Positions 13,663 to 62,511 of a DNA stretch of 64,000 bases are shown here, piece after piece. The notes beneath the pieces were generated by a model. It made no database searches and had not been told where the DNA came from. It saw only the letters and a program-made list of their open reading frames with translations. The stretch covers positions 1 to 64,000 of the forward strand of contig NZ_BJYS01000012.1 of the NCBI RefSeq assembly GCF_007991635.1, written 5' to 3'. Each line of letters begins with the position of its first letter. Within the stretch, counting starts at the first letter, position 1. This stretch comes from Adhaeribacter aerolatus (GTDB taxonomy: Bacteria > Bacteroidota > Bacteroidia > Cytophagales > Hymenobacteraceae). The translations under genes and the position numbers were made by a program.

Positions 13663-15567
13663 TTACCTGACTACCACCACGCCTAACTGGGCGCCAATTT
13701 CCACCTCGTACTGCTGCAGGGTTTTGATTAAGGTCATTATTTTCATTATTTCTGGAAAATCCTTTTCGGTTTTAAGCAGTTCGGCGTTTTCTTTAATCAT
13801 TTGCTGTACATTGCGCCATTTCAGCCGCAATACGGCCGTATCGGCGGCAAACTGCAGCATATCGGTTTCGCGGGGCACAAAAATCTGGTGGGTTTCCCAG
13901 TTTTCGCTCAGCTCAAATTTATCGGTAAGCAAACTGATGGCTTCCTGTCTGATTTCACCATCGGGGTAATTGATAAAGTAATCCGGCGAAACGAGTGAAG
14001 ACTGTTTTACTACCTCCTGAAATAAAGTTATTAAACGGGCATGTATGGGTATTTTGAAGTCAATGTCTTCGAGCTGCGCCAGCAGGTAAGGCAAAAAAGG
14101 CTCGCCTTCGGGTAGTTGGTGCGCCGAATAATTCACCAGCAAGCGTAAAACTTCGCGCTCGTGGTGCAGCAAAATGGCATCGTCGGCGGCTACTTCGTCT
14201 TCGGGCTGGGGTGTAAGTTCAGGCTCGGTGGTCGGGATAGTGGGAGAAGCCGGTTTGGGCCGCTCCTGCTTCATGAGTTTGTTGTACTCGGTAAGCAATA
14301 CCTGCTCTTCGATGCCGAATATGACGCTGCACCGCTGCAAAAACACGGCCCGCTTAATAGAATCCGGAATTTTAGAGATACTGGAAATTATTTCCCGAAT
14401 GGCCTCGGCTTTTTTAACCGGGTTATGCTCGGCCTCCTGGCTTAACAGCTCAGTTTTAAAGGAAATAAAATCTTTAGCGTTGGTGTCAATATATTTCTTG
14501 AAAGCCGTATCGCCTACTTTCCGGATGTAACTGTCCGGGTCTTCTTTATCCGGAAACAACACTACATTTACGTTCAGGCCACCTTCCAGAATTAAATCAA
14601 TACCCCGCAACGAAGCTTTTATACCGGCGGCATCGCCGTCGTAGAGTACCGTAATATTTTTGGTGTACCGCCCAATCAGCTTAATCTGGCCTTCGGTAAG
14701 CGAAGTGCCCGACGAGGCCACCACATTTTCGATGCCGCCCTGACTAAGCGAAAGTACATCCAGATAACCTTCTACCAGGTAACACAAATCCTGGCTCCGG
14801 ATGGCTTGCTTGGCCTGGTACATGCCGTAGAGCACATCGCTCTTGTGGTATATTTCGGACTCCGGCGAGTTAACGTACTTGGGCGTTTTATCATTCGACT
14901 TCAGCGTGCGGCCGCCAAAACCCACTACCCTGCCCGATAAATTATGAATCGGGAACATAACCCGCGCCCGGAACCGGTCGTATTTTTTATCTTCTTTTCT
15001 AATGGTCAGGCCGGTGCTTTCCAGAAACTCCAGTTGAAAGCCTTGCGCCAAAGCTTTAGCGGTAAGGCCGTCCCAGGCTTCGAGGCTGTAGCCCAGTTCA
15101 AACCGCTGGATGGTAGGCATGGCTAAACCACGGTCTTTAAAGTAAGGCAAGCCAATGCTCTTGCCTTGTTCGTGGTTTAGCAGAATATCGTGGAAATAAT
15201 CTTTAGCGAAGTTAGAAAGTATATACTGACTTTCCTTCTCGCTCTGGGCCTGGGTAAGTTCCGGCGTAACTTCTTCTTCAATCGCAATCGCGTATTTCCG
15301 GGCCAGGTATTTCAGGGCATCTACGTAGCCAATGCCCTCAATATCCATAATAAATTGCAACGAATTACCCGCCTTGCCGCAACCAAAGCACTTATAAATG
15401 CCTTTAGCCGGTGACACCGAAAAAGAAGGCGATTTTTCGTGATGAAACGGGCACGGCGCCCACATATTCTGTCCTTTTTTCTTCAGGGTCACAAAATCCC
15501 CTACCACCTCCACAATATCGGCTTGCTGAATAATCTGGTCAACGGTTTCCTGGGGTATGCGGGACAT
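13663..15567 (-). CDS. dnaG: DNA primase
   Basis: A 634-residue DnaG that makes RNA primers at the replication fork. The N-terminal CHC2 zinc finger is complete (CPFHHEKSPSFSV, then CFGCG; Cys/His at about 39-64). The catalytic core and Toprim domain follow with YLVEGYLDVLSL (about 262) and LYDGDAAG (about 308), which supply the acidic metal ligands. The final ~170 residues form the helicase-interaction region, variable in sequence as expected. A TATCTTTG element on the minus strand (15591-15598) lies about 24 bp before the ATG and is a likely -7 promoter box. Confidence 0.95.
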   Translation of the reverse strand: MSRIPQETVDQIIQQADIVEVVGDFVTLKKKGQNMWAPCPFHHEKSPSFSVSPAKGIYKCFGCGKAGNSLQFIMDIEGIGYVDALKYLARKYAIAIEEEVTPELTQAQSEKESQYILSNFAKDYFHDILLNHEQGKSIGLPYFKDRGLAMPTIQRFELGYSLEAWDGLTAKALAQGFQLEFLESTGLTIRKEDKKYDRFRARVMFPIHNLSGRVVGFGGRTLKSNDKTPKYVNSPESEIYHKSDVLYGMYQAKQAIRSQDLCYLVEGYLDVLSLSQGGIENVVASSGTSLTEGQIKLIGRYTKNITVLYDGDAAGIKASLRGIDLILEGGLNVNVVLFPDKEDPDSYIRKVGDTAFKKYIDTNAKDFISFKTELLSQEAEHNPVKKAEAIREIISSISKIPDSIKRAVFLQRCSVIFGIEEQVLLTEYNKLMKQERPKPASPTIPTTEPELTPQPEDEVAADDAILLHHEREVLRLLVNYSAHQLPEGEPFLPYLLAQLEDIDFKIPIHARLITLFQEVVKQSSLVSPDYFINYPDGEIRQEAISLLTDKFELSENWETHQIFVPRETDMLQFAADTAVLRLKWRNVQQMIKENAELLKTEKDFPEIMKIMTLIKTLQQYEVEIGAQLGVVVVR

Positions 15568-15590
15568 AATTTAATATTTGGGTGCTTTTA

Positions 15591-15598
15591 CAAAGATA
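15591..15598 (-). promoter_or_regulatory. -7 element of the dnaG promoter
   Basis: TATCTTTG on the minus strand matches TAnnTTTG. The implied 5' leader is under 25 nt. No clear -33 TTG is seen at the usual distance. Confidence 0.45.
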
Positions 15599-15858
15599 GA
15601 AAACCTGGCAGAAAAAGAAATTTCTTCTGCAACGCTTAATGGCTAAGTTTAATGGTATACATTAATTTTAACCTTCACTCGCATAAGTATTCACCGGCGT
15701 TATAATCAGGTATAATTCCCCGCCGGAACCGGCAAATGCATCTTCGAACAGTAATAACCGGAAACTTTACAGGAAAAATAAAATAAATTAAATATTAATG
15801 TTTTTTAATATTTAAACTTTTATTAATTTAGTGCAGGTCAATAACAAATCACTATTCC

Positions 15859-16005
15859 ATGAAAAAGTTAATACCATTTTCTCTGTTTTTGCTGGCCGGC
15901 CCGTTCGCGCTGGCATTACTAACCGGCAAGAAAGAATCGGCCTTTAATAAAATCAGGATGGGTAAAGTACTAAAGGAAAGTGAAGACCTGTTTATAGGCA
16001 GTTAA
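15859..16005 (+). CDS. Possible 48-residue exported or membrane peptide
   Basis: A short ORF starting MKKLIPFSLFLLAGPFALAL, a good signal peptide or membrane anchor (two Lys, then a hydrophobic run to about residue 21). It is followed by a charged tail with several Lys/Glu and ending LFIGS. It sits alone in a gene-poor region. A weak -7-like TAATTTAG lies about 30 bp upstream. No relatives are recognised. Confidence 0.35.
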   Translation: MKKLIPFSLFLLAGPFALALLTGKKESAFNKIRMGKVLKESEDLFIGS

Positions 16006-16291
16006 CATTAACGAATGTCCAAAACTATAATATTAACCGGAGCAATATTTATAGATGCCGCTACAACATCTTTAATAAATTAAACTTTGCATTTAATATC
16101 CGGCAATTTAGTTCAAGTAGTTACCAGAGCCAATCATCGTTCTTAATAAATATTTTAAGCTGAATAAATGCTTCTTACGATATTTTTCAACCACTCTAAA
16201 TAAGAAATATAAATTTAGCCGAACCCTAAAAATTATCACCAAAAAGTATAAATAAATAACTGTTAAAATTTTTATTAAATATTATTTTCCT

Positions 16292-16299
16292 TAGATTTG
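16292..16299 (+). promoter_or_regulatory. Possible -7 promoter element
   Basis: TAGATTTG fits TAnnTTTG. The -33 region is T-rich but lacks a clear TTG. If used, transcription would start at about 16305 and run to the terminator at 16705. Confidence 0.35.
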
Positions 16300-16347
16300 C
16301 AACACACAACAGATAATTTTTACAGCACATTATAAAAGCTACACCAA

Positions 16348-16437
16348 ATGAAAAGCAAAGAAAATTCAAAAAAATTGGCTACGGTAGGTAGCTGGATTTT
16401 AAAACCTGGTCAGAAAATATCCACCGAAACCCGATAG
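16348..16437 (+). CDS. Possible 29-residue peptide
   Basis: A very short ORF beginning MKSKENSKKLATVGSWILKP and ending in ETR. It lies about 49 bp downstream of a -7-type element. It is rich in Lys and Ser, with one aromatic/hydrophobic patch (GSWIL). No Gly-Gly leader site or modification motif is seen, so a peptide-natural-product precursor is not supported. It may be coding, or chance within a non-coding RNA. Confidence 0.25.
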   Translation: MKSKENSKKLATVGSWILKPGQKISTETR

Positions 16438-16704
16438 CTATAGAGAACTTCTACAAATTAGAACTTAATCCGGTTTAGATTTCGGCAATCAAATTTTGCC
16501 GGATAAAATATACTGCGTCAAATTCCCGGAAAAATACCGCAGCAGTATTTACCAAGGGTAATACCTTGCCATTATTTACCCCTTATTCTTTATTATTTGC
16601 ATCTGAAGGCTCACGCCGGCACCGGTTCTTTCCTGGCCAGTTAAGGTATGTCTTCGCTTCGCTCCTTTTGCCCTGATTCTAAAAACACCTGAAAGTATCA
16701 ACTA

Positions 16705-16735
16705 CCCCGCCTTCTCCGGCGGGGTTTTGTTTTCT
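16705..16735 (+). terminator. Strong Rho-independent terminator without an obvious gene
   Basis: CCCCGCC (16705-16711), loop TTCTCC, GGCGGGG (16718-16724), then TTTTGTTTTC. There is no normal-sized gene for 700 bp upstream on this strand, so it may end a short RNA or small-peptide transcript. Confidence 0.8.
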
Positions 16736-17037
16736 ATTTTCCCAGCCCCCCTGCTTAAACCTATTAGAAAAGATTAGCATTTAGAGACTTTCCGGCAAAG
16801 ACACTGTATTAAACCCTCTTCGCTCCTACGAATAAAAAGTAAAACCTAATTCCCAGGGCTTGACCTACCGCAGGATAAAAATAACTAAATAGGCCGGCCG
16901 GCTTATCCAAATATCTTTGATAATCCGAAGGCAACCTGCTTGTGGTTTTGAAAATAAATCCTTTTATCTGCAACATCGTTTAGCACAAAGTTCTATATTT
17001 TAACTCCAGTAGTTCCTCCATTGTATGAAACCCCTGT

Positions 17038-17748
17038 ATGAACCCAGATTTCGAAGTATTTGACCTCAAACGAATATTTATTGGCGATGCGCCGCTCATC
17101 TTTTTACTGGAGATTGTTTTCCGCACGCTGGTTATGTATAGTTACAGCATTTTTTTGTTGCGGCTGTTGGGTAAAAGAGGAATGGGGCAGCTATCTAACC
17201 TGGAACTGGCCATTATTATTACGTTTGGTTCGGCCATTGGCGACCCCATGATAAACGCCAGCATACCAATATTACACGGCGTGGTAGCCGTTACGGCAGT
17301 TACCATTTTTCAGATTAATCTGGAACGGTTTATAAATAAAAACAAAAAGGTGGAAGCTTTTATGGAGGGCGAGCCCAACCTGGTAGTAGATAAAGGGGTT
17401 ATAAAATGGGACTGCCTGACCAGAGATAATTTATCCAAAGAAGATTTGTTCCGATCGTTACGCAGTAAAGATGTAGAGCACTTAGGTCAGATAGAAAAAG
17501 CATTCTTTGAAACCTCCGGCCAGATATCGGTTATGTTTCGGTCGCAGGAAAATACAAAGCCGGGCTTGAGTTTGATTCCCGAAAATGAAATTGAACCGGA
17601 GGCTATTTTGAAAGCGCCCACACCCGTACCAACCGCCGGCCTGTATTGTTGCCTGGATTGTGGTAACCTAAAATCTTTGGCGGAAGCGCAAAAAGTAAGC
17701 AAATGTGAGTTGTGTGGGGCTAAAGAATGGGTGGTAGCTAAAAAGTAA
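17038..17748 (+). CDS. YetF-like DUF421 membrane protein with C-terminal zinc ribbon
   Basis: A 236-residue protein with the YetF/DUF421 plan. There are three N-terminal membrane helices (about 20-95, including GKRGMGQLSNLELAIIITFG), then a cytoplasmic alpha/beta domain (about 105-185) with LVVDKGVIKWDCL. After residue 200 a tail contains CCLDCG and CELCG, spaced like a zinc ribbon (C-x2-C about 24 residues before C-x2-C). Typical YetF proteins end without such a module. The function of the family is not established. No close neighbour shares its strand and spacing. Confidence 0.85.
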   Translation: MNPDFEVFDLKRIFIGDAPLIFLLEIVFRTLVMYSYSIFLLRLLGKRGMGQLSNLELAIIITFGSAIGDPMINASIPILHGVVAVTAVTIFQINLERFINKNKKVEAFMEGEPNLVVDKGVIKWDCLTRDNLSKEDLFRSLRSKDVEHLGQIEKAFFETSGQISVMFRSQENTKPGLSLIPENEIEPEAILKAPTPVPTAGLYCCLDCGNLKSLAEAQKVSKCELCGAKEWVVAKK

Positions 17749-25526: not shown

Positions 25527-27359
25527 ATGGGTAAACATCTTTATTTATTTGTTTTAACCTGCTTACAGTTACTTTTTCTGGCCGGCTGTTCTCCCAAACA
25601 AACCCCAACGGTTACTAATTCGGACCCCGCCCCGTCCACGCTGTCCGGGGCTGAACAGTCCAAAGTTGCGGGACAAAAGCCTACGGATTCGGTTCCGGCC
25701 ACTAGTCCGTATGCCTCTAATCCGCAGGTCATTTCCCAGGGCGAGGCTTTATTTCAGAACAACTGCGCCACTTGCCATAATTTCAAACAAAAAGGCATCG
25801 GCCCCAACCTGGCTGGCGTTACCGCAGAGGTTTCGCATGCCTGGATCACCAGCTTCATTCGTAATGCCCCGGCAGTTATTGCGAGTGGTGATGTCCGGGG
25901 AAAACGCCTTTTTGCAGAATTTAACCAATATATGCCGCCTTTTACGGGCTTAAGCAATGCTGATATCCAGGCCCTGGTTTCATTTATAAACACCCATAAA
26001 AAAACGGCGCCCCCCAACGTGAGTAGCGCCCAGTTTGGCGAAGCCATCAAAGACCCTATACCAACTAAAATTCCTAAATCTAACCTGAAATTAATACTGG
26101 ACGAAGTATTAACCGCGCCGGCTACGGCCCAGAAAATACCTTTGGCCCGCATAAACAAAATGCGGGTATTAACCGGCGGTAAAAAAGACCGGCATTTTAT
26201 ACAGGAGCTGCGGGGGCTGATTTATGAAATAGAAGGTAAAAAGCTGAACGTTTTTATGGATATTACCAAAGAACGTCCGGGTTTTATTCCGCAACCAGGC
26301 TTGGCCACTGGCTTCGGGAGTTTTGCTTTTCACCCGGAGTTTTACAAAAATGGTTTATTCTATACCACCCACACCGAGAAAGCCCAGGCCGCCCCGGCTG
26401 ATTTTGCTTTTGCCGACTCCATAAAAGTAACCCTGCAGTGGGTACTAACCGAGTGGAAAATGAAAGATCCCTATGCGGCGACTTTTGCCGGTACGGGCCG
26501 GGAAATGCTGCGGGTTAATATGATGACCCAGGTCCACGGGGTGCAGGAAATTACTTTTAATCCTTTGGCCAAACCAGGTTCGCCGGATTATGGCTTATTG
26601 TACATTGGGGTGGGCGACGGCGGTTCGGCCGAAGGCGGCGCTTACTTTATTTGTAACAGCAATAAAACCATCTGGAGCTCGGTGCTGCGCATCGACCCGA
26701 AAGGTAGAAACAGCCAAAACAAGAAATACGGCATTCCGGCCCAAAACCCCTTTGCCCAAGACAATGATTCCCAAACCTTGGGCGAGGTTTATGTCCGGGG
26801 TTTCCGCAATCCAAACCGCATTACCTGGTCACCGGATGGCAAAATGCTTATCTCGGATATTGGTTTAAATAACATGGAAGAACTAAACCTGGGCCAGGCC
26901 GGTGCCGATTACGGCTGGCCGGCCCGGGAAGGCACTTTCCTGCTGGACTACCGGGGCAAAATGGACCGGGTTTACGCCCTACCGCCGGACGATAATAAAT
27001 TTAACTATACTTACCCGGTAGCGCAGTTCGACCACGACGAAGGCAATGCTTTTTCGGGTGGCTTTGTTTACACCAACCCCAATATTCCGGTTTTAAAAGG
27101 CAAATATATCTTTGGCGATATTGTGAGTGGCCGCGTATTTTTCGTAGAAAACAGCCAACTCAAGCTGGGGCAGCAAGCACCCATTCAGGAAATGGATCTG
27201 CAAATTGCGGGCAAGCGCACTACTTTAAAGGAAATAATGGGCGGCAAAAAAACCGACCTCCGCTTTGGCTTAGGACCAAAACAAGAGCTTTACATTTTTA
27301 CCAAATCAGATGGCCGGATTTATAAAGTAACGGGCTGCTCAACTAAGGAAGAAATATAA
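25527..27359 (+). CDS. Cytochrome c / PQQ-type sugar dehydrogenase fusion lipoprotein
   Basis: A 610-residue lipoprotein (lipobox LAGC at about 21). Residues 65-160 form a class I cytochrome c with the haem site CATCHN (about 79-84) and a likely Met ligand in FNQYMPPF. Residues 190-600 form a six-bladed glucose/sorbosone dehydrogenase-type propeller (LATGFGSFAFHPEF, LLYIGVGDGGSAEGG, EVYVRGFRNPNRITW, GADYGWPAREG). The fused haem domain could take electrons from the quinone-type active site and pass them to the respiratory chain. The exact substrate and whether PQQ is bound are unknown. Confidence 0.88.
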   Translation: MGKHLYLFVLTCLQLLFLAGCSPKQTPTVTNSDPAPSTLSGAEQSKVAGQKPTDSVPATSPYASNPQVISQGEALFQNNCATCHNFKQKGIGPNLAGVTAEVSHAWITSFIRNAPAVIASGDVRGKRLFAEFNQYMPPFTGLSNADIQALVSFINTHKKTAPPNVSSAQFGEAIKDPIPTKIPKSNLKLILDEVLTAPATAQKIPLARINKMRVLTGGKKDRHFIQELRGLIYEIEGKKLNVFMDITKERPGFIPQPGLATGFGSFAFHPEFYKNGLFYTTHTEKAQAAPADFAFADSIKVTLQWVLTEWKMKDPYAATFAGTGREMLRVNMMTQVHGVQEITFNPLAKPGSPDYGLLYIGVGDGGSAEGGAYFICNSNKTIWSSVLRIDPKGRNSQNKKYGIPAQNPFAQDNDSQTLGEVYVRGFRNPNRITWSPDGKMLISDIGLNNMEELNLGQAGADYGWPAREGTFLLDYRGKMDRVYALPPDDNKFNYTYPVAQFDHDEGNAFSGGFVYTNPNIPVLKGKYIFGDIVSGRVFFVENSQLKLGQQAPIQEMDLQIAGKRTTLKEIMGGKKTDLRFGLGPKQELYIFTKSDGRIYKVTGCSTKEEI

Positions 27360-27389
27360 CCCTAAATTCTGAACGCTAGACCAAAGCAT

Positions 27390-27563
27390 AGCCCTGAAAG
27401 GGCGAAATCTCCCAACATAGGGTGCAGCCATGTGCTGATCAAGCACCCGAAAGCCAAAGCCCGGAATGGGCGTAATTATTTCTGGTTAAATTTCGCCTAT
27501 TCAGCGCGCTTAAATTACCGATGGGCTGCACCCATCGCTGACGGATTTCGCCCTTCCGGGGCT
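27390..27563. repeat. 174-bp imperfect palindromic (REP/MITE-like) element
   Basis: Outer arms AGCCCTGAAAGGGCGAAATC (27390-27409) and the complement of AGCCCCGGAAGGGCGAAATC (27544-27563) differ at 2 of 20 positions. Inner arms GGGTGCAGCC (27420-27429) and GGCTGCACCC (27524-27533) are perfectly complementary. It has no ORF and lies between two plus-strand genes. Similar CCCGGAAGGGCGAAAT and GGGTGCAGCCCAT strings recur in Bacteroidota intergenic DNA, as I recall them. Confidence 0.7.
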
Positions 27564-27688
27564 ATTCGGAATATATAAATAGTTTATAAAATATTCGGTC
27601 AAATTTCTGTTCAAAAATATTGCCCCAAAAGTTTTTAACAACCCTTTACGGATTGCCTACTAAATCTGTACTATTCCCAAAAGACTAT

Positions 27689-27696
27689 TATATTTG
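27689..27696 (+). promoter_or_regulatory. -7 element of the icd promoter
   Basis: TATATTTG, a perfect match to TAnnTTTG. The leader to the ATG at 27823 would be about 120 nt and includes a small hairpin (ACTAT-cgtccgg-ATAGT near 27715) flanked by two TAGGTAC copies. Confidence 0.5.
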
Positions 27697-27756
27697 CCGC
27701 TGTAACTATTAGGTACTATCGTCCGGATAGTTAGGTACATCATACTAAAAAAATAA

Positions 27757-30048
<2,292 letters not shown>

Positions 30049-30066
30049 CTGTAATAAACTTACTTC

Positions 30067-30107
30067 AAAAGGCTACTGAATTAATTTTCAGTAGCCTTTT
30101 TTTATTA
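30067..30107 (+). terminator. Terminator after icd
   Basis: A perfect 14-bp stem AAAAGGCTACTGAA (30067-30080) with its complement (30087-30100), 6-nt loop, then a T run. Confidence 0.9.
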
Positions 30108-30270
30108 CTAGGTTTTATTTATTATTAGTGGAAATATACTGATTTGTTGTTAGTAATGCTCTTGTTAGTTTGAAGTTGAAAAAAGCAGTATATACTTATT
30201 ATGAATTCTAAAAGGATTTGTTCCCTTTAGGTACGAGTTAGCAGTAAGGTTAAAAGATTCACATATAATT

Positions 30271-32241
30271 ATGCAAGCAAAAGAAACTAAACTTCAAGAT
30301 ATAATTGAGGGAACAAAACAGTATGTAATCCCCCTTTTTCAACGTACTTATAGTTGGACAAGTAAAGAATGGGAAATATTATGGAAAGACCTTGTGGAAT
30401 TATGTGAAACAGAAAATCCAAGAACACATTTTATAGGATCGATAGTTAATATGCCAACGGTTTCTGTACCAGAAGGAGTTGCGAAGTACCTCCTTATAGA
30501 TGGACAACAACGATTAACTACAATATTTATAATTCTAACACTATTAAGAAATAAAGCAAGAGAGAATCAAAATGAGGAATTTGCAGGAGAGATTAATAAT
30601 ACTCTATTAGTAAACCCTTATAAAAAGGATAATGACTTCTATAAGTTAATGCCAACACAAGTAGACAGAGAAATTTATAAAAATTTTATTAATGGAAGAT
30701 CTAATGAAAAGGAGAGTCAATTAACAAGAGCCTATGATTTTTTTGAGAAAAAATTAAGGCAGTATCAACTAGACCCCGAGAAGCTAAAAAAGATAATTAC
30801 TACATATTTTTCAGTAGTTAGTATACTTTTAGATGCAGATGACAATCCTTATTTAGTATTCGAGAGTTTGAATGCAAAGGGACGACCGCTAACCCAAGCT
30901 GATTTGATAAGGAATTATTTTTTCATGCGCATTCATGTTGATAAACAAGAACAGGTTTATAGCGAATTTTGGCAGCCAATGCAAGATGCATTAGAAGATA
31001 ATTTAACTGAATTTATTCGCCACTTTTTAATGAAAGAAGGTTCTATTATCAAACAAACAGATGTTTATTATGAATTAAAGGATAATGTAAATCCTCAAAA
31101 TTCAATCATATATTTAGAAAACCTACAAAAGCATTCATTATATTATCAAAAAATCCTTTATCCAGATTATGAAAATGATAAAGATTTACAAAAATACTTT
31201 CGCAGACTGAACCGATTTGAAGTAACTACGGCATACCCACTTTTGCTAAAACTTTATAATTATTATGTTTTAGACACCTTGCCCAAAGAAGATTTCATTA
31301 CGGCTTTACAGACAATAGAGAATTATTTAATCCGTAGATTTGTTTGTGGTATACCTACTAATCAATTGAATAAAATTTTCCCCGCGATTATTCCTCAATT
31401 AATATCTAAATATGAATTAAAAATACCTGAAGGACTTCAATATCTTTTGCAGACGAAAGGGTATCCAAAAGATAATGAATTTAGAGTCCGGTTAAAAGAA
31501 GCAAAACTGTATGGAAGCGGCGATAGATATGTAAAAACAAAGCTAATATTAGAAAGCCTGGAGGAATATTTTGGTCATAAGGAGAATGTTCTACTTGAAA
31601 ATTTGACCATTGAACATGTTATGCCTCAAACATTATCTGAAGCATGGCAGAGTCACTTAGGAGAAGAGTGGGAAGAAACCCATGAACTCTATTTGCATAC
31701 AATTGGTAATCTTACCTTAACAGCCTATAATACTGAGTTATCCAATGATGATTTTTCCACTAAGAGAGAGATATTTATTGAGAGTCATTTAGAATTGAAT
31801 AAGTATTTTATTGCATTAACTAAATGGACCAAAGAGGAAATTGATGAGCGTTCTGAATCCCTAGCTAATAAAGCTATCGAAATGTGGCCATATTTTGGTC
31901 ATGATAATTCTTTTAAATCTGAGATTCAAGAAGTCACTGGTACAATTCCAACAGAAGTAAAAATATTAGGTCAGAGCTTTAGTGTAAAATCTTGGAGAGA
32001 TGTCTTAGAATTAACGCTAAATACAGTTGCAGACCTTGAACCTGAGAAGTTTGAAATTATTGCTCATAATTTTCCAAGATATTTAGGGAGAGAAAAAAAT
32101 AAATTTAGAGCAGTCCGAGAATTAGAGAATGGTTATTTTTTGGAGGTAAATTTATCTGCTCAAAATATACAAAGGTTGTGCTATCAAGCTATGGAAACAA
32201 TAGAACTATCATCAGAAGACTGGAAAGTAGCAGTTGAATAA
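30271..32241 (+). CDS. DUF262/DUF1524 (GmrSD-like) putative defence nuclease
   Basis: A 656-residue protein with the GmrSD layout. The N-terminal DUF262 (ParB-like nucleotide-hydrolysing) domain has IPLFQRTYSWTSKEWEILW (about 17-35) and LLIDGQQRLTTIFIILTLL (about 73-91, the DGQQR motif). The C-terminal DUF1524 His-Me nuclease-like domain has TIEHVMPQTLSEAWQSHLG and HTIGNLTLTAYNTELSN (about 450-497). A further ~100-residue tail follows. GmrSD enzymes cut modified (glucosylated) phage DNA; here no partner or methylase is adjacent. The gene is much more AT-rich than its neighbours, with AAA/TTA/ATA codons favoured, which suggests recent transfer. Confidence 0.87.
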   Translation: MQAKETKLQDIIEGTKQYVIPLFQRTYSWTSKEWEILWKDLVELCETENPRTHFIGSIVNMPTVSVPEGVAKYLLIDGQQRLTTIFIILTLLRNKARENQNEEFAGEINNTLLVNPYKKDNDFYKLMPTQVDREIYKNFINGRSNEKESQLTRAYDFFEKKLRQYQLDPEKLKKIITTYFSVVSILLDADDNPYLVFESLNAKGRPLTQADLIRNYFFMRIHVDKQEQVYSEFWQPMQDALEDNLTEFIRHFLMKEGSIIKQTDVYYELKDNVNPQNSIIYLENLQKHSLYYQKILYPDYENDKDLQKYFRRLNRFEVTTAYPLLLKLYNYYVLDTLPKEDFITALQTIENYLIRRFVCGIPTNQLNKIFPAIIPQLISKYELKIPEGLQYLLQTKGYPKDNEFRVRLKEAKLYGSGDRYVKTKLILESLEEYFGHKENVLLENLTIEHVMPQTLSEAWQSHLGEEWEETHELYLHTIGNLTLTAYNTELSNDDFSTKREIFIESHLELNKYFIALTKWTKEEIDERSESLANKAIEMWPYFGHDNSFKSEIQEVTGTIPTEVKILGQSFSVKSWRDVLELTLNTVADLEPEKFEIIAHNFPRYLGREKNKFRAVRELENGYFLEVNLSAQNIQRLCYQAMETIELSSEDWKVAVE

Positions 32242-32293
32242 GAATCATCAGAGGAAACATCTTCCCTTGATCAGCAAAGGGCCTCTTGATAAT

Positions 32294-32407
32294 CTAATTA
32301 TAAAAATATTTTTTAAGCTGAACTGTTAAGTCTTTAGTTACACCAGTATAAAGAACTGTTTTTTTCGGATTTGAATGAATATAAACGAAATAGTTTCCTT
32401 TAAGCAT
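32294..32407 (-). pseudogene. Truncated GIY-YIG endonuclease-like gene
   Basis: A 37-codon ORF that starts MLKGNYFVYIHSNP, then TVLYTGVTKDL, then ends after about ten more residues. This is the N-terminal beta-hairpin (GIY-YIG region) of the small UvrC-like GIY-YIG proteins that usually run about 85-100 residues. Here the text reads Y-V-Y ... Y-T-G with the usual spacing. The helix carrying the catalytic Arg and the later Glu are missing. The RR normally after TNDL reads VQ. It lies between the DUF262 gene and the T9SS gene in the same AT-rich patch. Confidence 0.65.
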
Positions 32408-32477
32408 TGTAGCTAGCGCTTTTGAATAGGCTATACAGTATCTTCTTGAATGACAAAAATAATAAACCAAAAAGAGA

Positions 32478-32528
32478 AATAATAAAAGAAAAAGGGCAAC
32501 ACATCGCTGCCCTTTTTCTTTTATTATT
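32478..32528. terminator. Long perfect hairpin, bidirectional terminator
   Basis: Arms at 32478-32498 and 32508-32528 are perfectly complementary over 21 bp around a 9-nt loop. The core reads AAAGGGCA/TGCCCTTT, with A/T-rich outer parts giving T tracts on both strands. It can end the minus-strand T9SS gene as well as plus-strand transcripts. Confidence 0.85.
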
Positions 32529-32656: not shown

Positions 32657-35600
32657 TTACCTGGACACCGAAATACGCCTGGTCTCTAACCCTTTATCGG
32701 TCAGGAGTTGGAGCAGGTAGACGCCTTCGGCCAATCCGGCTACGTTTAACTCTAATGTTAAGGCTTTACCCGCTACTGCTTGTCCGGCCGAGATGTTTTT
32801 CACTTTAGCGCCCTTGCTGTCGTAAAGTGCTAACGTGTAATTACCCGTAATTTTCAAAGAAAAGTTTACGGTTGCCTGGTTACGGATGGGGTTCGGATAA
32901 ACCTGCATATTATTTACCAAAGCTTCTTCAACCATAACCGGATTTTTAGTGGCAGTCAGCGCTGTCTGGCCCGGTGCCAGAATCTGCACCGAGATACTAA
33001 CTTTCTGGCCGAATGCATCGGTAACGGTTACGGTGTAAATACCGGCGGCTAATCCGGTTAAGTCTTCGGTCGTAGCGCCGTTGCTCCAGCGGTAAGTAAA
33101 AGGGGCAATCCCTCCTACTACACTTAAATCAACAGAACCATCGCGGCCACCGGTTGCAGATACATTTATTTGTGACGAGGCCAGCTTAATCGGGTCATTT
33201 TTCCGGCCTACGGTTACAGCCGCTCTGGCCACACAGCCTTTGGCATCGGTGAGGGTTACGGTGTAAGTACCCGGGGCAGCGACGGCTACATCCTGGCTGG
33301 TCAGGCCGTTGCTCCACTGATAAGTATACGGAGCGGTACCGCCACTCACGGTTAAGTCGATGGCACCGGCACCGGTAGTTGGTCCCCACATGCCATACCA
33401 GGGTTCGGCTTGCGTAATTTTGCTCGTAAGCGCTACACTGCACGCGGTTGGCTGGGGTTCGGCACTTTTTACCGCAAAGCTCTTCTCGGTTGAAGCGGAA
33501 TTGTAATTAGCATCACCCGCCTGAGCAGCCCGTACGGTTACGGTACCTACTCCGGTTAAAGTAACCACATTCCCCGCGATAGTAGCTGGCCCGGAAACAA
33601 TGCTGTAGCTAAGCGGTAAGCCCGAAGAAGCTGTGGCACTCTGCATAAAAGGTGCTTCACCTAAAGTCTTATCCGGAATAGCCGCTAAGTTAATGGTTTG
33701 GTTCGCTTTAGCTACGGTGAAGCTACGCTGTACCACAGTAGCGTCCGAATAATTGTTATCGCCCGGTTGTTCGGCTTGTACGGTAACGGTACCAGCGCCT
33801 AATAGATATAGCGTATTGCCCAGCAATTTAACTGTTCCCGAAATTACCCGAAAACTTACCGGCAAGCCAGAAGAGGCAGTAGCGGTTAAATTAACGGGAG
33901 CATCACCATAGGTTTTATCGGCCAGCGGTGCGAAGTTAATGGTTTGAGCGGCTTTAACTACTGTAAAGCTCTGGTCAACTGGTTGTGCGGTGTGATAGGT
34001 TCCACTTCCTGCCTGGGAGGCGCGCACCGTTACTATTCCGGCTCCAGTAAGCGTGACAATATTGCCCGAGATAGTAGCCGGCCCCGAAAGAATACTAAAG
34101 CTAACCGGCAGACCGGAGGAGGCGGTTGCACTAACCATAAACGGCGGCTCGCTAAAGGTTACTTTGGGCAGCGGCGGGAAATTAATAGTTTGACTCATCT
34201 TCGGAGGGCCCCACACCCTGAAGGTGCGATCTACATCCGGAGCAGCCAGATAAGTGGCATTGCCTGCTTGCGAAGCCCGAATTGTCACCATGCCTGAGTC
34301 GGTTAGCGTAACTGTATTACCCGAAATAGTAGCGCCGCCGACTACCACGCTAAAGCTCACCGGCAGACCCGAAGAAGCCGTAGCGCTGATGGTAAATGGT
34401 GCATCGCCATATTCCTTGTTGGGTAAACTAGCAAAACTAATGGTTTGGCTCAGCCTCGTAGGACTCAGCACATTAAAACTTACATCTACCGGGGTAGCAG
34501 CCAGGTAACGGTCGTTGCCTGGGTGGTAAGCCCGTACGGTTACTTTACCCACGCCGGTCATGGTCAGGGTTTTACCCGATAGGGTAGCCGGACCCGACAT
34601 AATCCGGTAGTACAAACTTAACCCGGAACTGGAGGTAGCATTCAAAGTAAAAGGGGCATCGCCGTACAACTTATCCGGTATGGGTGGAAAGGTGATGGTT
34701 TGGGTCTGTAAGCCCGAGGTATTTACGGTAATGGTAAGACTGGCTGTTCCGGCACAACCATTGGCATCGGTACCGGTAACGGTATACGTGGTAGTAGCCG
34801 TAGGTTTCGCAATTACGGAACCTCCGGTAGTACTGCTTAAACCCGTAGCCGGCGACCAGGTATAGTTGCCGGCACCGGAAGCGGTTAATGTAGCCGAACC
34901 GCCACTCGTAATGGTGGTGGCATTGGTGGTAACTACTATTTTAGGAAGTGGGTTTACGGTTGCGGTAACCGGCACCCGGGTACTTTCGCAGGAGCCATTC
35001 ACCACCGAAACATAATACGTAGTGGTTGCTGCAAGCACCGGCGTGGTAAAGATTGCAGTGGTTGCAACAGGTGTGCTAGTTGAATTGCTGGTGTACCAGC
35101 GGTAAGAACCCGTGGCAGGTGCGCCGGAAGCAGTTAGTGTAACCGGACCAGGGCCGCAGGTGGCTTTTGAAGTGACTGTTGGGGCATTCGAAATGGCACT
35201 GGCTACCGCCAGGGTTTGCGGAGCACTACTTCCGCAGCTATTTTGAAAATTCACACTAATGGTTCCTGGTGCTGAACCAGCTTTCACGGTAATAATATTT
35301 GTCCACTGACCACTTATAATGATCCAGCCCGAAGGTAGTTGCCAATCATAATACCCGGTTTCGTAGTTATAATTTTGGTCTGCTGGTTTAGCTGTATACA
35401 CGACTAATTCACCCACACAGGGTGTATTGGTATTGGCAGTAATAGGAGTTAATTGGGTTGGTACAACAACAGGCTCTACTGAATTGTACCCCACGTGGCT
35501 ACCACAAAAACTATCACCTGATAAAGTTATGAGACCATTGGTAGTACCGACTTTTACAGTTATACTTGAAGTTCCCTGGCCACTGACAATAGTCCAGCCA

Positions 35601-37450
35601 CTTGGTACATCCCAGCTCAAATTCTTATATAACTCTGGGTCTGAAGCTGTGTAAACAGCTATTGTACCTGAACATGGGTTACTGGGGCCATAAAAAAATG
35701 GCTGGCCTAAAACATTGACAGAAGTACGTAAATCGGTACCGTTATCGGTACCAATTACAGCAGGTGATAAAGTTGAAACAACGCGTAATCTGTAACCTTT
35801 ACCTTCTGGGATATTTGATGAAAAGGGGATATCTGCAAAAATTGGGCTTGCTGTACCTTCTCCTATTGTTATCGGAGATGCGAAAGATCCCGTCGTATCC
35901 GAAAGCTGAACTTTGAATATTTCAGATGGGCTAAATGTACCACTTGTAGTAAAAGAAACTTCGAGAGGCCCGCCGATACAAAAACCTGGCAAAGCTAAAT
36001 TCTTAGTTGTAATAGTTCGCTCAGGTGTATGAGAAGGTGATAATTTTACAACCCAATAATCATTAAGGTAACTATAACCAGTACCTATCCTACTCTCACT
36101 TTTATCCCCGCTTAAATTAGAATGAGAACTTCCTCCCATAAAATACCCCCCATCGTCCGTTTGCTGAATAAAACTTAAGATATCTTCATAATCTCCGCCA
36201 AGGGTTTTATCCCATTCTTTTTTACCAGTAGCGTTTATTTTTACAACCCAGAAATCATTTCCTCCCCTACCATTTTCGCTCTTATCAAAACTCCAACCAG
36301 AATTAGACTTACCACCTAAAATATAACCACCATCGGTTGTAAGTTGCATAGCAGTAACCGCCTGACTTCCTCCCCCACCATAAGTATTATCCCATTCTTT
36401 AAGACCCGAGGCGTTCAACTTCACTACCCAGAAGTCAGCAATTCCTTTATTCTCTATACTTTTATCACCACTTATCCTTGAGATTGACCATCCACCCAGG
36501 ATACAGCCCCCATCAGGCGTTGCTTGTAAAGCTCCAAAAACTTCAAAATCAATTCCTCCCAGCGTATTGTCCCATTCTTTATTGCCCGAGGCATTTAACT
36601 TAACAACCCAATAATCACTATAACCTCCTTTATTTTCACTCTTATCCCCGGAGATATTCGATTCGGAGGTTCCACCCACTATAAAGCCGCCATCTACGGT
36701 TTGCCGAACAGTCTTTAATTCATCCTTAGCATTCCCTCCTACGGTTTTATCCCATTCTTTCGTGCCATTGGCGTTTAGCTTGACAATCCAATAATCGTCA
36801 TAACCTTTAGAATTTTCGGTTTTACCTCCAAGCTGATATGCATTTGAGGTAGAATTCCCACCCAGAATATAACCACCATCCCTTGTTTGTTGAAGACTTA
36901 TTAAATTGTCTTGGCCCGTTCCACCAAATGTTTTATCCCATACTTTATTTCCGGCAGCATCTAATTTTACCACCCAATAATCGCCACCACCAAATGAACT
37001 CTCACTTTTATCACCACTTATATTAGACACGGAAATTCCCCCTAGAATAAACCCCCCATCGGTGGTTTGCTGGATAGAATTTAAATCATCTCCGCTTGTG
37101 CCTCCAATAATCTTATCCCATTCTTTGTTGCCATTGGCATCTAATTTTATTATCCAAAAATCACTTCTCCCCGTACTGTAGCCTACTTGGCTTTTATCAC
37201 TACTTATCCCGTAAGAATACGTAGTTCCTGCTAAAATATAACCACCATCGGTTGTCTGCTGACCAGAATTTAATAATTCATTATCCTCACCTCCCAGCGT
37301 GTTATCCCATTGTTTGGTTGGCTGGGCTATAAGATTAGCAATAGATACACTGTACCATAAGAGAAATACCATTATGGCGAAAGTCGCTCGTGTTATTGAA
37401 TGTAGGCTTGAACCATTAAAGGCTCTCTGTTTTGTAATTTTTTTAATCAT
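32657..37450 (-). CDS. Giant T9SS cargo protein: seven-repeat propeller-like domain, Ig-like and SprB-like repeats
   Basis: A 1597-residue secreted protein. Signal peptide to about residue 42 (ends NLIAQP). Seven tandem repeats follow (about 45-500), each with a W-D-x-T-GG start, a QQTTDGGYILGG strand, SGDKSE and DYWVVKLNA; seven such units suggest a seven-bladed beta-propeller. Several Ig/PKD-like domains come next (about 500-930). Then five ~85-residue repeats starting QTINF and containing ATASSGLPVSFS (about 935-1340). Two SprB-like repeats follow (GGTAPYTYQWSNG, GTYTVTLTDAKGC), and finally a T9SS type A sorting domain (MQVYPNPIRNQATV, last residues RRISVSR). It is probably a surface-anchored adhesin or gliding-type protein. 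It is a paralogue of the gene at 37766. Confidence 0.9.
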   Translation of the reverse strand: MIKKITKQRAFNGSSLHSITRATFAIMVFLLWYSVSIANLIAQPTKQWDNTLGGEDNELLNSGQQTTDGGYILAGTTYSYGISSDKSQVGYSTGRSDFWIIKLDANGNKEWDKIIGGTSGDDLNSIQQTTDGGFILGGISVSNISGDKSESSFGGGDYWVVKLDAAGNKVWDKTFGGTGQDNLISLQQTRDGGYILGGNSTSNAYQLGGKTENSKGYDDYWIVKLNANGTKEWDKTVGGNAKDELKTVRQTVDGGFIVGGTSESNISGDKSENKGGYSDYWVVKLNASGNKEWDNTLGGIDFEVFGALQATPDGGCILGGWSISRISGDKSIENKGIADFWVVKLNASGLKEWDNTYGGGGSQAVTAMQLTTDGGYILGGKSNSGWSFDKSENGRGGNDFWVVKINATGKKEWDKTLGGDYEDILSFIQQTDDGGYFMGGSSHSNLSGDKSESRIGTGYSYLNDYWVVKLSPSHTPERTITTKNLALPGFCIGGPLEVSFTTSGTFSPSEIFKVQLSDTTGSFASPITIGEGTASPIFADIPFSSNIPEGKGYRLRVVSTLSPAVIGTDNGTDLRTSVNVLGQPFFYGPSNPCSGTIAVYTASDPELYKNLSWDVPSGWTIVSGQGTSSITVKVGTTNGLITLSGDSFCGSHVGYNSVEPVVVPTQLTPITANTNTPCVGELVVYTAKPADQNYNYETGYYDWQLPSGWIIISGQWTNIITVKAGSAPGTISVNFQNSCGSSAPQTLAVASAISNAPTVTSKATCGPGPVTLTASGAPATGSYRWYTSNSTSTPVATTAIFTTPVLAATTTYYVSVVNGSCESTRVPVTATVNPLPKIVVTTNATTITSGGSATLTASGAGNYTWSPATGLSSTTGGSVIAKPTATTTYTVTGTDANGCAGTASLTITVNTSGLQTQTITFPPIPDKLYGDAPFTLNATSSSGLSLYYRIMSGPATLSGKTLTMTGVGKVTVRAYHPGNDRYLAATPVDVSFNVLSPTRLSQTISFASLPNKEYGDAPFTISATASSGLPVSFSVVVGGATISGNTVTLTDSGMVTIRASQAGNATYLAAPDVDRTFRVWGPPKMSQTINFPPLPKVTFSEPPFMVSATASSGLPVSFSILSGPATISGNIVTLTGAGIVTVRASQAGSGTYHTAQPVDQSFTVVKAAQTINFAPLADKTYGDAPVNLTATASSGLPVSFRVISGTVKLLGNTLYLLGAGTVTVQAEQPGDNNYSDATVVQRSFTVAKANQTINLAAIPDKTLGEAPFMQSATASSGLPLSYSIVSGPATIAGNVVTLTGVGTVTVRAAQAGDANYNSASTEKSFAVKSAEPQPTACSVALTSKITQAEPWYGMWGPTTGAGAIDLTVSGGTAPYTYQWSNGLTSQDVAVAAPGTYTVTLTDAKGCVARAAVTVGRKNDPIKLASSQINVSATGGRDGSVDLSVVGGIAPFTYRWSNGATTEDLTGLAAGIYTVTVTDAFGQKVSISVQILAPGQTALTATKNPVMVEEALVNNMQVYPNPIRNQATVNFSLKITGNYTLALYDSKGAKVKNISAGQAVAGKALTLELNVAGLAEGVYLLQLLTDKGLETRRISVSR

Positions 37451-51882: not shown

Positions 51883-51956
51883 GGTCACGTAGCTCAACTG
51901 GATAGAGCATCTGACTACGAATCAGAAGGTTTGGGGTTCGACTCCCTACGCGACCA
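51883..51956 (+). tRNA. tRNA-Arg (anticodon ACG)
   Basis: A 74-nt cloverleaf. The anticodon stem TCTGA/TCAGA encloses CTACGAA, with ACG at 51917-51919. The T-arm has TTCGACT, and the D-arm contains AGCTCAACTGGATAGAGC. The acceptor stem GGTCACG/CGCGACC has one A-C mismatch at the fifth pair. The 3' CCA is not encoded (CTA follows the discriminator A). A promoter and a terminator flank it. It marks the left edge of the AT-rich block. Confidence 0.95.
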
Positions 51957-51960
51957 CTAG

Positions 51961-51996
51961 AAAGGCTCTTAGAAATACTCTAAGGGCCTTTTTTAT
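51961..51996 (+). terminator. Terminator after tRNA-Arg
   Basis: A 13-pair stem (51961-51973 with 51979-51991, including one G-T pair), 5-nt loop AATAC and a T run. Confidence 0.85.
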
Positions 51997-51998
51997 TT

Positions 51999-52243
51999 AG
52001 TTCGGAAATATATCGGACACCAGTTCTATTATCTAAATTCTTTTAATGCATCATACTGTTTTTCATAATCCTATAAAACAGCTACAATTCCTTAATAGAT
52101 TTTATTGCTAAATAGATACTATTTAATATTAAATTGAATTATCAACTTCTACTAGATTTTATCCTCTGATTTAATAATTCTTCTAATTTTAAGTATAAAG
52201 TAAGTTAAGCGAAAATACTTATTCTAAAACTATAATACCGCTA
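51999..52243. other. AT-rich stretch between the tRNA and the IS3 relic
   Basis: About 245 bp with no gene. No copy of the IS 3' end sequence (TGGACTTGCAAC on the outer side) can be found here, so the left end of the IS seems lost. Confidence 0.4.
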
Positions 52244-52763
52244 ATGAGGAAATTCGACAAAGAATTTAAGCTGATGACCGTTGAGCTCAGTAAGTACGCG
52301 GAGACTTAAATGCGCCAGCCGAAGAATTAGATAATCGGGCACAGCTTATTTATTGCTGACGTAGCGAGTTTTTAGATAAGAATGCAGGCAGCTTTCCAGG
52401 CCATGAAAAACACAAGCATACTCCCGAATATGCGGTGATAGCCAAATTAAAGAAACAACTTCAGGATGTAGGGTTAGAAAGGAATATGGGACCAATGCTG
52501 ACATACATTTGCGGGTCAAAAAAGGCCTTCAGCATCTTCTTCAAGGGAGACGACAAACCTACCGAACTGAAGTGATTAAGGTAACTGGTTTGAAAATCAA
52601 CCAACGGCTACTATTGAGTTCTTTGAGTTAAATAAAATCTGGCACAACCGAGAAAGGCTGTATTCCCGCTTAGCCTAACGTACTCCAGTTCAAATGAAAG
52701 AACTACTAAATCGTCTATCTGAGGCCACTTAATTTTTTGTCGGCTTTTTTGTTGCAAGTCCAG
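52244..52763 (+). mobile_element. Decayed IS3-family insertion sequence
   Basis: Starts with an orfA-like ATG (MRKFDKEFKLMTVELS), then after stops and frame changes gives EFLDKNAGSFPGHEKHKHTP, followed by AKLKKQLQDV, all typical of an IS3 OrfA. Immediately after come RTEV-type N-terminal OrfB remnants (VIKVTGLKINQR). Then, with most of OrfB deleted, the OrfB C-terminus appears as IWHNRERLYSRLA, a stop, then RTPVQMKELLNRLSE. The right end reads TTGTCGGC...GTTGCAAGTCCA, like the inverted repeat of related elements. The catalytic DDE region is gone, so it cannot move by itself. Confidence 0.8.
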
Positions 52764-53180
52764 TATGCAACACATCAAGTTTAGCCGATTTTACTCCTTT
52801 GCTTTCTCAGCAAGAACGTTAGTTATCAACTAGGAGTAAGCACGAACTCACTTGAGCACCGTTATATTACATCGAGCACACGTCCAATAGCTCAAAATGC
52901 CATACTTTATTAAGTATTATTGTAAAGCATGTTGCTTTAGCTCATCGAGTAAACATTTACAGCACTGTAAAAAAAATCTTAACTTTTATATCTTCAACGC
53001 TAATGCCATTATACCAGTCTATTTTAATCATTTTTGCTCAACGGTATAAAACCAAATATGCAAATTCATATATAATTATTAATAATTGTTGTACCTATTT
53101 TTTTTATAAAAATTTAAAGAATTTATAAAATATTTTTAATTATATTAGAGCTTGTTTAAACCCTATATACACTATTAAAT
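52764..53180. other. AT-rich stretch upstream of the LuxR-type gene
   Basis: About 420 bp, strongly A/T-rich toward the right. No ORF, no TAnnTTTG match near the start at 53181. It should hold the promoter of the LuxR-type gene and perhaps of the Bat operon. Confidence 0.4.
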
Positions 53181-53444
53181 ATGGAACAGATTTACCCAAG
53201 CAAAGAGGCATTGGCAACGCCAAAGTATTTGAATGTTAGTACTCAATTGTCGCTAACGAAAAGAGAAACTGAAATTTTAAAGCTTATTACAGATGAATAC
53301 TCAAGCTTAGAAATTGCAGAAACCCTTTCTATTAGTCTCAAAACAGTAGATACACACCGAAAGAGCTTAATTAGGAAAACTGGAGCCCGCAATATAGTTG
53401 GCCTAGTGAAATTTGCCTTGCACTTTAGCATAGCAAAGTGGTAA
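53181..53444 (+). CDS. Stand-alone LuxR-type HTH protein
   Basis: An 87-residue protein that is mostly a single LuxR C-terminal HTH domain: LTKRETEILKLITDEYSSLE (about 26-45), IAETLSISLKTVDTHRKSLI (about 46-65), RKTGARNIVGLVKFAL. The usual receiver or sensor domain is missing; the first ~25 residues are not conserved. It lies 48 bp upstream of the moxR gene in the same direction. It may regulate the Bat operon, perhaps co-transcribed with it, but this is inferred only from position. Confidence 0.85.
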   Translation: MEQIYPSKEALATPKYLNVSTQLSLTKRETEILKLITDEYSSLEIAETLSISLKTVDTHRKSLIRKTGARNIVGLVKFALHFSIAKW

Positions 53445-53492
53445 ATCTAGGGTTTAAATAATTAATTTAAATATTTATAGCTTTTTAACTAT

Positions 53493-54494
53493 ATGCCTCA
53501 AACAGACCTCCTTTCATGCATCTCTTTAAAAGAACGAGTACAGCATGAGAGTATCTTAATAAAACACCTAACAAAAGAAATAAAAAAAACAATTATTGGA
53601 CAGACCTATATGATAGAGCGATTATTAATTGCTGTACTAGGAGGTGGGCACATATTGTTAGAGGGTGTACCTGGCTTAGCAAAGACTTTGGCCGCTAAAA
53701 CTATGGCAACAGCTATAGACGCTACATTTAGCAGAATTCAATTTACTCCCGATTTGCTTCCTTCCGATATCACTGGTACAACCATATTCAGTATGGAAAC
53801 AAATAATTTTATTCCTAAAAAAGGCCCCATCTTTGCAAATTTTGTTTTGGCTGATGAAATTAACAGAGCCCCTGAGAAGGTACAGAGTGCTTTACTTGAA
53901 GCAATGCAAGAAAATCAAGTAACAATTGGTGAATACACATACAAACTGGAATCTCCTTTTACTGTACTAGCTACCCAAAATCCAGTAGAGCAACATGGCA
54001 CCTATACATTACCAGAAGCACAGCTCGACAGGTTTATGCTGAAGATTTTGATAGATTACCCTCAAATTGATGAAGAAAGGCTAATTATGCGAAATAATCT
54101 AAGTACAAGGCCGCATAACAATAATGCAGTTCTTACTAAAGATAAAATTGTAGATCTTTGTAAGTTGGTAAAGGAGATTTATTTGGATGAAAAAATAGAG
54201 AGTTATATCTTAAATATTGTGTTCTCAACTAGGTATCCTGACAAGTTTGGATTTCCTCAACTTCAGAATTTTATAAAAACTGGAGTATCTCCCAGAGGAA
54301 GTATCAACCTTGCAACTGCTGCTAAGGCTTGTGCTTTTCTGAACGAAAGGGATTATGTTATACCTGAAGATGTGAAGGAGGTAGTTGCAGACGTACTTAG
54401 ACACAGAATAAGTCTGACTTACGCTGCTGAGGCCGAAAATTTAACTCAAGACGATATGCTGCATGAAATAATTAATCAAATTCCTATACCTTAA
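53493..54494 (+). CDS. MoxR-family AAA+ ATPase of the Bat operon
   Basis: A 333-residue MoxR protein. Walker A is GVPGLAKT (about 63-70), Walker B ADEINRAP (about 115-122), sensor 1 LATQNPVEQHGTYTLPEAQL (about 152-171), with the C-terminal lid ending in VSPRGSINLATAAKACAFL. MoxR ATPases act as chaperones for von Willebrand A proteins encoded next to them, here DUF58, BatA and BatB. It is the first gene of the operon and is followed 49 bp later by the DUF58 gene. Confidence 0.95.
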   Translation: MPQTDLLSCISLKERVQHESILIKHLTKEIKKTIIGQTYMIERLLIAVLGGGHILLEGVPGLAKTLAAKTMATAIDATFSRIQFTPDLLPSDITGTTIFSMETNNFIPKKGPIFANFVLADEINRAPEKVQSALLEAMQENQVTIGEYTYKLESPFTVLATQNPVEQHGTYTLPEAQLDRFMLKILIDYPQIDEERLIMRNNLSTRPHNNNAVLTKDKIVDLCKLVKEIYLDEKIESYILNIVFSTRYPDKFGFPQLQNFIKTGVSPRGSINLATAAKACAFLNERDYVIPEDVKEVVADVLRHRISLTYAAEAENLTQDDMLHEIINQIPIP

Positions 54495-54543
54495 AAAATG
54501 TGTCCTTTAATATAAATTCTAAACACGTATTTGTAAATGCATA

Positions 54544-56327: not shown

Positions 56328-56334
56328 AATTGAT

Positions 56335-57330: not shown

Positions 57331-57337
57331 AAAGTTG

Positions 57338-59040: not shown

Positions 59041-59043
59041 AAA

Positions 59044-61244: not shown

Positions 61245-61386
61245 GTTTTAAATATTCTAATAAATCTTGTAAGTGAAGGAATAAAATAATATCTAGTACT
61301 ATTTTAACAAATACTAACCAAAAATGGTGCAAGTTTCATTGAGCTAAAACATTTTAAAAGGCTGTACTTCTGGACCAAATTAAAAA

Positions 61387-62472: not shown

Positions 62473-62511
62473 AATCGTTAATATTTACAATTAAAATACC
62501 TTAGAATACGA

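Follow-up and report, generated by a model that had tools for sequence, protein, structure and literature searches.

A horizontally acquired GmrSD-family nuclease gene of Adhaeribacter aerolatus with a predicted SeqA-fold C-terminal domain

Introduction

GmrSD enzymes are defined by DUF262 at the N-terminus and DUF1524 at the C-terminus, on a single chain or split over two, and by NTP-dependent cutting of modified but not unmodified DNA. Members of the family share a set of motifs listed as QR, (I/V)DGQQR, FxxxN, (E/D)HxxPQ, GN...N, NxxFxxK and W..R..L..W (PMC4619093). A survey of the family published in 2015 could not name the region by which these enzymes recognise their target; it records extra C-terminal domains, DUF4268 among them, and a 2025 review suggests that such fused domains of unknown function serve other modification states. 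The family member BrxU cuts DNA carrying 5mC, 5hmC or glc-5hmC, and recognition has been proposed to lie in its DUF262/DUF1524 core (PMC8565348). In SspE and DndI, by the account in PMC11662687, reading of the mark is placed in the N-terminal domain and the tyrosine that senses phosphorothioate (PT) sits in a PxYQR segment. HEC-06 is described as acting alone and TgvAB as needing two adjacent DUF262 proteins (PMC11411939).

SeqA is described as binding hemimethylated Dam sites (PMC12707154), with contacts to GATC attributed to R116, T117, R118, N150 and N152 (PMC6225831). Here we describe a gene of A. aerolatus whose product joins a GmrSD-type nuclease to a domain with the predicted fold of the SeqA DNA-binding domain. 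The gene lies in a stretch of 64,000 nucleotides (contig NZ_BJYS01000012.1, positions 1 to 64,000), which was analysed as a whole and is referred to below as the window.

Results

A lone AT-rich gene between icd and a T9SS gene

The locus comprises the following features (coordinates, strand, description):

27775..30048, + strand, icd, the left neighbour (named in the original prediction; taken from the ORF list)
30067..30100, + strand, terminator-like stem-loop of icd, a 14-bp perfect stem with a T run after it
30107..30270, + strand, leader of the insert; BLAST homology to sibling genome G005 ends at 30106
30271..32241, + strand, GmrSD-family (DUF262-DUF1524) protein with a predicted SeqA-fold C-terminal domain; single ORF, 656 aa
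32252..32407, - strand, GIY-YIG remnant of a resident gene, not cargo of the insert, first 52 codons with an in-frame TAG; intact copy in G005
about 32478..32528, - strand, terminator-like hairpin of the T9SS gene, 21-bp perfect arms
32657..37450, - strand, T9SS-sorted surface protein, the right neighbour; PF18962 Por_Secre_tail and SprB repeats

The GmrSD-type gene (+) is flanked by icd (+) and the T9SS-sorted gene (-) and lies within the terminator-like hairpins of both; a similar hairpin follows icd in G005, the nearest available relative (icd 96% identical). The terminator search gave five candidate sites (1.5 in shuffles), of which three are registers of a single hairpin. A sigma-70-type promoter scan was uninformative, with 18 sites against 12.3 in shuffles and none on the + strand of the leader; the junction alignment of this leader (30107..30270) to G005 was weak and convincing homology was absent.

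The gene has a GC content of 0.315 and a GC3 of 0.227, compared with 0.487 and 0.534 for icd; among 1971-bp stretches of the window from 1 to 51.8 kb (mean GC 0.449, sd 0.039) the minimum, 0.308, falls at this locus. The composition break is therefore real and strong, in agreement with the original prediction of a sharp shift in base composition and codon use. That prediction had also placed no modification gene nearby, which is true for the genes read at 25.5-44.3 kb.

Two other parts of the window are unusual in composition. About 1.5 kb at 15567-17038 contains no ORF of at least 90 aa and is low in GC (0.33 at 15501-16500). At 51883-64000, a tRNA-Arg (51883-51957) is followed by AT-rich sequence (GC 0.31-0.39) in which a MoxR-Bat-type operon and TPR proteins were recognised by eye; this is either native AT-rich sequence or a tRNA-associated island.

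The nuclease core

The 656-aa protein carries both domains of the predicted DUF262/DUF1524 layout on one chain, each far above cut-off. Its parts are:

30295..30924, + strand, residues 9-218, DUF262 / GmrSD_N (ParB/Srx-like NTPase-sensor); PF03235, 124 bits, E 8e-36; DGQQR at 77-81
31462..31869, + strand, residues 398-533, DUF1524 / GmrSD_C (His-Me finger HNH nuclease); PF07510, 105 bits, E 3e-30; E448-H449, N480, N487
31903..31941, + strand, residues 545-557, predicted flexible linker; residues 547-556 with pLDDT < 50
31960..32235, + strand, residues 564-655, predicted SeqA-fold C-terminal domain, candidate DNA-mark reader (VIA-align to 1lrr; hhalign)

All of the listed GmrSD motifs are present, including DGQQR, FxxxN, EHxxPQ and GN. 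Between GN and the following N there is one residue fewer than in the published motif, so that a strict pattern missed GN...N; N480 and N487, together with DGQQR, E448 and H449, are invariant in 35/35 aligned sequences. The best models in the defence libraries were PADLOC Orf5 (686 bits) and HEC-06 (289 bits), both matching within residues 1-541; we found no tie between the PADLOC name Orf5 and any published system.

A structure model from the 35 sequences had a mean pLDDT of 87.7; an earlier model, from 13 sequences, was poor in the core (pLDDT 66) and good in the tail. By VIA-align the closest folds to the core were the C-terminal domain of SspE (Z 25.8), DndI (24.7) and BrxU (14.6), the 580-residue chain of the latter aligning to residues 1-544 only. 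The viral structure library listed DUF262 proteins and unrelated ones.

A C-terminal domain with a predicted SeqA fold

Standard searches did not reveal the nature of the tail. Residues 541-656 matched no Pfam family above cut-off, PF03925 included (the control, E. coli SeqA itself, matched PF03925 at 170 bits), and SeqA_N is absent from the Pfam result of the 656-aa protein, where the nuclease stands in its place. The tail sequence gave chance-level rows against the PDB, SeqA not among them, and plain Foldseek had no SeqA among the 50 matches listed; SeqA surfaced only in a second look with VIA-align. There, four SeqA entries (1lrr, 3fmt, 1iu3 and 3sk7) aligned with Z of 10.8, 10.7, 10.7 and 10.4 and rmsd of 2.1-2.4 over 91-92 residues (2.1 Å over 92 residues for 1lrr), compared with Z 6.5 for the best row outside DUF262 and SeqA proteins. 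The earlier, weaker model, built from a different alignment, gave SeqA at Z 10.6-10.9 and the next unrelated row at 4.7.

Profile comparison with hhalign of 18 tails against six SeqA sequences gave a probability of 92.8%, E 4.1e-7 and a score of 42.3, the maximum over 60 column-shuffled versions being 18.2; the 18 tails had been picked by eye as SeqA-type once the fold match was known (a further SeqA-like locus, L118, was dropped for stops in frame), and the guards against this bias are the shuffles and control tails of DUF5655 and RAMA type only, which scored 14.3 and 8.4 against SeqA. The score was weak (15.2) against E. coli SeqA singly and strong only with the six SeqA sequences. The 14 closest tails alone scored 13.4, weak though in register, and those of L075, L077, L080 and L021 alone scored 30.3. 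From the structural Z scores and the profile score above shuffles we conclude that the tail and SeqA have a common fold, as modelled, and probably a common ancestry.

In the alignment to SeqA, N627 corresponds to N150, S629 falls on N152 and N600-F601-P602 on R116-T117-R118, i.e. one of the five GATC contacts (N150) is kept. N627 is N in 14/18 tails and H in 4/18. E625 (18/18), the one column of the tail that shows no variation, lies two residues before N627, within the loop that in SeqA contacts the base. The site read by the tail is nevertheless likely to differ from that of SeqA.

In relatives the same nuclease chassis carries DUF5655, RAMA or DUF4268 tails, or none. Examples from virus-collection contigs are L093, L095 and L097 (RAMA), L070-L072 (DUF5655) and L078, L084 and L089 (DUF4268), with tails assigned by Pfam on L093, L070, L078, L084 and L089 and by alignment on the others. 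SeqA homologues were not found in phages or viral contigs. Among open PMC papers we found none naming a SeqA-like domain in GmrSD-type enzymes, nor any that mentions both DUF262 and DUF5655.

The more probable reading, which we favour, is a type IV restriction enzyme that depends on DNA modification and whose tail contributes to recognition of the mark. A weaker contender, which we regard as rather doubtful, is an ordinary GmrSD type IV enzyme directed against phages with hypermodified cytosine, in which recognition would reside in the core, in line with the proposal for BrxU, leaving only non-specific DNA binding or dimerisation to the tail. The core motifs and fold do match GmrSD and BrxU, the whole BrxU chain is accommodated without the tail and some family members lack one; moreover, the tail may be accessory because mark reading in SspE and DndI sits in the N-terminal domain. 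Against this, close homologues conserve the tail to the same degree as the remainder of the protein (63-76% identity compared with 64-74% for the whole), and its SeqA fold belongs to a reader of a specific DNA mark.

Distribution and transfer

icd is present in 8/8 genomes of the genus (83-96% identical in the other seven), but the GmrSD-type gene is absent from 7/7 of the others, contrary to what a native gene sharing place and composition in all relatives would show. Relatives at E <= 1e-20 occur in 22/204 genomes of the taxonomic family, own genome included, the best other being 38% identical. A wider scan, with one genome per species, returned 19 loci, seven of which (L044, L046, L047 and L049-L052) were excluded from the alignment as partial or broken; 12 full-length copies are 64-74% identical along their whole length and come from Nitrospirae, Candidatus Brocadia, Chloroflexi and several Bacteroidetes. 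In 11 of these 12 the AT content of the gene exceeds that of its flanks. A search with the single sequence found no close relatives on plasmids, phages or viral contigs; querying the viral contigs with an alignment instead yielded 39 loci (best identity 66%), 22 of which entered a further alignment.

Neighbours vary by host in the 17 relatives' loci that were read, and only three Brocadia genomes have common flanks. These three (L040, L046 and L050) have the gene at one common site; one of them keeps it intact, and in the other two it is split or shortened. Given that neighbours differ between hosts, the gene travels and, if it works, works as one gene; on these comparisons it is a much-transferred single gene with no common partner. 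Defence genes in the company of relatives include a type ISP R-M gene and, on L073, recombinases and type I R-M genes recognised by eye. On viral-collection contig L068 (4001-9286) a 66% identical copy is followed by a 1048-aa ORF that, by eye, may be a restriction-modification protein. A transfer unit larger than the gene was considered and rejected, since the 13 loci compared had no DNA in common within 300 bp on either side, a weak test that proves little as synonymous sites are saturated. Apart from its SeqA-fold tail, the insert is ordinary horizontally moved defence-type cargo.

In the four pairs tried, dN was 0.18-0.28 and dS >2 or saturated, which indicates a family under purifying selection. 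This bears on a further alternative, that the gene acts mainly as a plasmid barrier or is a decaying selfish remnant of no present benefit. A DUF262/DUF1524 gene of Pseudomonas, PFLU4242, is reported to cause plasmid cost (PMC8544851), and some hosts carry split or shortened copies (L046, L047, L050 and L052); the 656-aa copy, however, is complete and retains every catalytic residue, and its family is under purifying selection, and we consider this explanation unlikely.

A spot where nuclease genes are exchanged

G005 matches the window by BLAST at 26333-30106 and again at 32324-32499. Between these segments it carries a 292-aa HNH gene (PF01844; GC 31.5%), then an intact GIY-YIG gene. The HNH gene (contig C7 15039-15917, L053) is in none of the other genomes of the eight-genome genus set; its PADLOC matches (PDC-M68A, PtuB, ZorE) are weak and at HNH level only. 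As this place is occupied by an AT-rich HNH gene in G005 and by the GmrSD-type gene in the window, the spot beside icd is one at which lone, AT-rich nuclease genes are exchanged.

The same comparison overturns one part of the original prediction, which had counted the truncated GIY-YIG gene as cargo of the insert. The remnant represents the first 52 codons of the gene that is intact in G005, and strong homology to G005 restarts at 32324, within it; by alignment it is a resident gene that became a casualty of the exchange. Three further GIY-YIG genes in the own genome (L060, L061 and L062) are 57-73% identical to the G005 copy. Two of the three were inspected closer and each is single between unrelated genes, for which reason this small gene itself looks mobile.

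Comparison of the icd-T9SS junction, proposed originally as a way to find the empty site, showed other genes occupying the spot in relatives and yielded no true empty site among the genus genomes, with G005 carrying its HNH gene there. In G002, G003, G004 and G007 icd is followed by an opposite-strand ORF, by eye a mannose-1-phosphate guanylyltransferase; the arrangement after icd differs in G001, and G006 is a short contig.

Methylases and the candidate mark

The own genome encodes a Dam-family adenine methylase on another contig (TIGR00571, 287 bits; L112 2679-4289, contig C29). It adjoins a convergent 179-aa ORF with no Pfam or NCBIfam match, which could be its restriction partner. Members of this family above cut-off were found in 6/18 carrier genomes, own included, and not in the other 12/18, in a set of 18 that includes several draft MAGs, which may be incomplete; a Dam-family methylase is thus neither excluded by nor required for carrying the gene. 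Gm6ATC would be a dangerous target for the enzyme in these six carriers, if their Dam-family methylases make GATC marks. The Dam family includes enzymes for other sites. With four of the five SeqA contacts changed and such a methylase in the host, the target need not be GATC. No C5-methylase was found in the own genome. Carriers would be expected to lack C5-methylases if the enzyme cut m5C DNA, but exclusion of these enzymes was dropped as evidence, as they are not depleted in carriers (8/22, compared with 75/182 non-carriers, p 0.82).

These counts also bear on the reverse arrangement, in which the tail would read a host methyl mark as self and the nuclease would attack DNA without it. SspE and DndI are described as using a self mark and the host does have a Dam-family methylase, but the 12/18 carriers in which no such match was found (with the above proviso for MAGs) and the lack of a linked methylase travelling with the gene make this very unlikely. 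Least credible of all is a PT-sensing effector that would be safe only with a host PT system: DndI and SspE are the closest solved relatives, yet a search of the own genome for the PT gene dndC gave no match above cut-off (10 bits at best for TIGR03183, E 0.79), the PT-sensing tyrosine (DndI Y25/SspE Y30) is Phe23 here and Phe in 13/13 close homologues, own included (Phe in 23/35 and Tyr in 12/35 aligned sequences), and no dnd/ssp-like neighbour was recognised by eye in the homologues' loci.

Discussion

With its anatomy, catalytic motifs, lone status and transfer history established and the fold of its tail predicted, the 656-aa protein is best explained as a type IV restriction system of the GmrSD family that consists of one gene and was acquired horizontally. 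If it resembles BrxU, SspE and DndI in its action, its DUF262 domain would bind and hydrolyse NTP and so gate the DUF1524 His-Me finger nuclease. The SeqA-fold domain, on its flexible linker, would bind DNA with a methyl-type mark, for which N6-methyladenine and hemimethylated sites are candidates, and this binding would bring the nuclease to foreign DNA. We infer the cutting, its dependence on a mark and which mark is involved.

The original interpretation of a foreign, AT-rich and lone GmrSD-type gene stands, except for its inclusion of the GIY-YIG gene in the insert. It missed the SeqA-fold tail, the exchange of cargo at the spot and the spread across phyla. It had reasoned, fairly, that such an enzyme, if active, has to distinguish phage from host DNA unaided; the SeqA-like tail is a candidate means of doing so.

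More tentatively, it is possible that one branch of the GmrSD nucleases acquired a SeqA-type methyl-adenine reader and thereby became m6A- or hemimethylation-dependent single-protein restriction enzymes, on a chassis that would exchange SeqA-like, RAMA, DUF5655 and DUF4268 readers. If true, such enzymes would recognise DNA methylated in a different cell, or replicated once after that. For the choice of target by GmrSD enzymes, the SeqA-fold tail is a concrete candidate reader that can be tested, and with it the SeqA fold, familiar from replication control, would enter defence.

Compared with known systems, the protein shares with GmrSD, Eco94GmrSD and BrxU its domain order, DGQQR, FxxxN and EHxxPQ, a single polypeptide and the lack of a partner gene; it differs from them in the extra linker and the predicted SeqA-fold C-terminal domain, and BrxU aligns to it less well than SspE and DndI. 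HEC-06 and PADLOC Orf5 are its best matches in the defence libraries, with the SeqA-like tail lying outside the matched region. In contrast to TgvAB, the locus has a single gene, and the genome gave only one match. SspE and DndI provide the best fold match to the core (Z 24-26), but here no dndC was found, the PT-sensing Tyr is replaced by Phe and the tail is outside the aligned range. With the C-terminal DNA-binding domain of SeqA (PF03925) the tail shares its predicted fold (Z 10.8, 92 residues), profile similarity and an equivalent of N150; it differs from SeqA in the absence of SeqA_N and of a PF03925 match, in the four changed GATC contacts and in its attachment to a nuclease. The closest parallel in concept is with DpnI and DpnI-winged-helix fusions, which are described as m6A-dependent (PMC12707154) and likewise place a methyl-reader domain on a nuclease, although there the reader is a winged helix and the nuclease is of the PD-(D/E)XK type.
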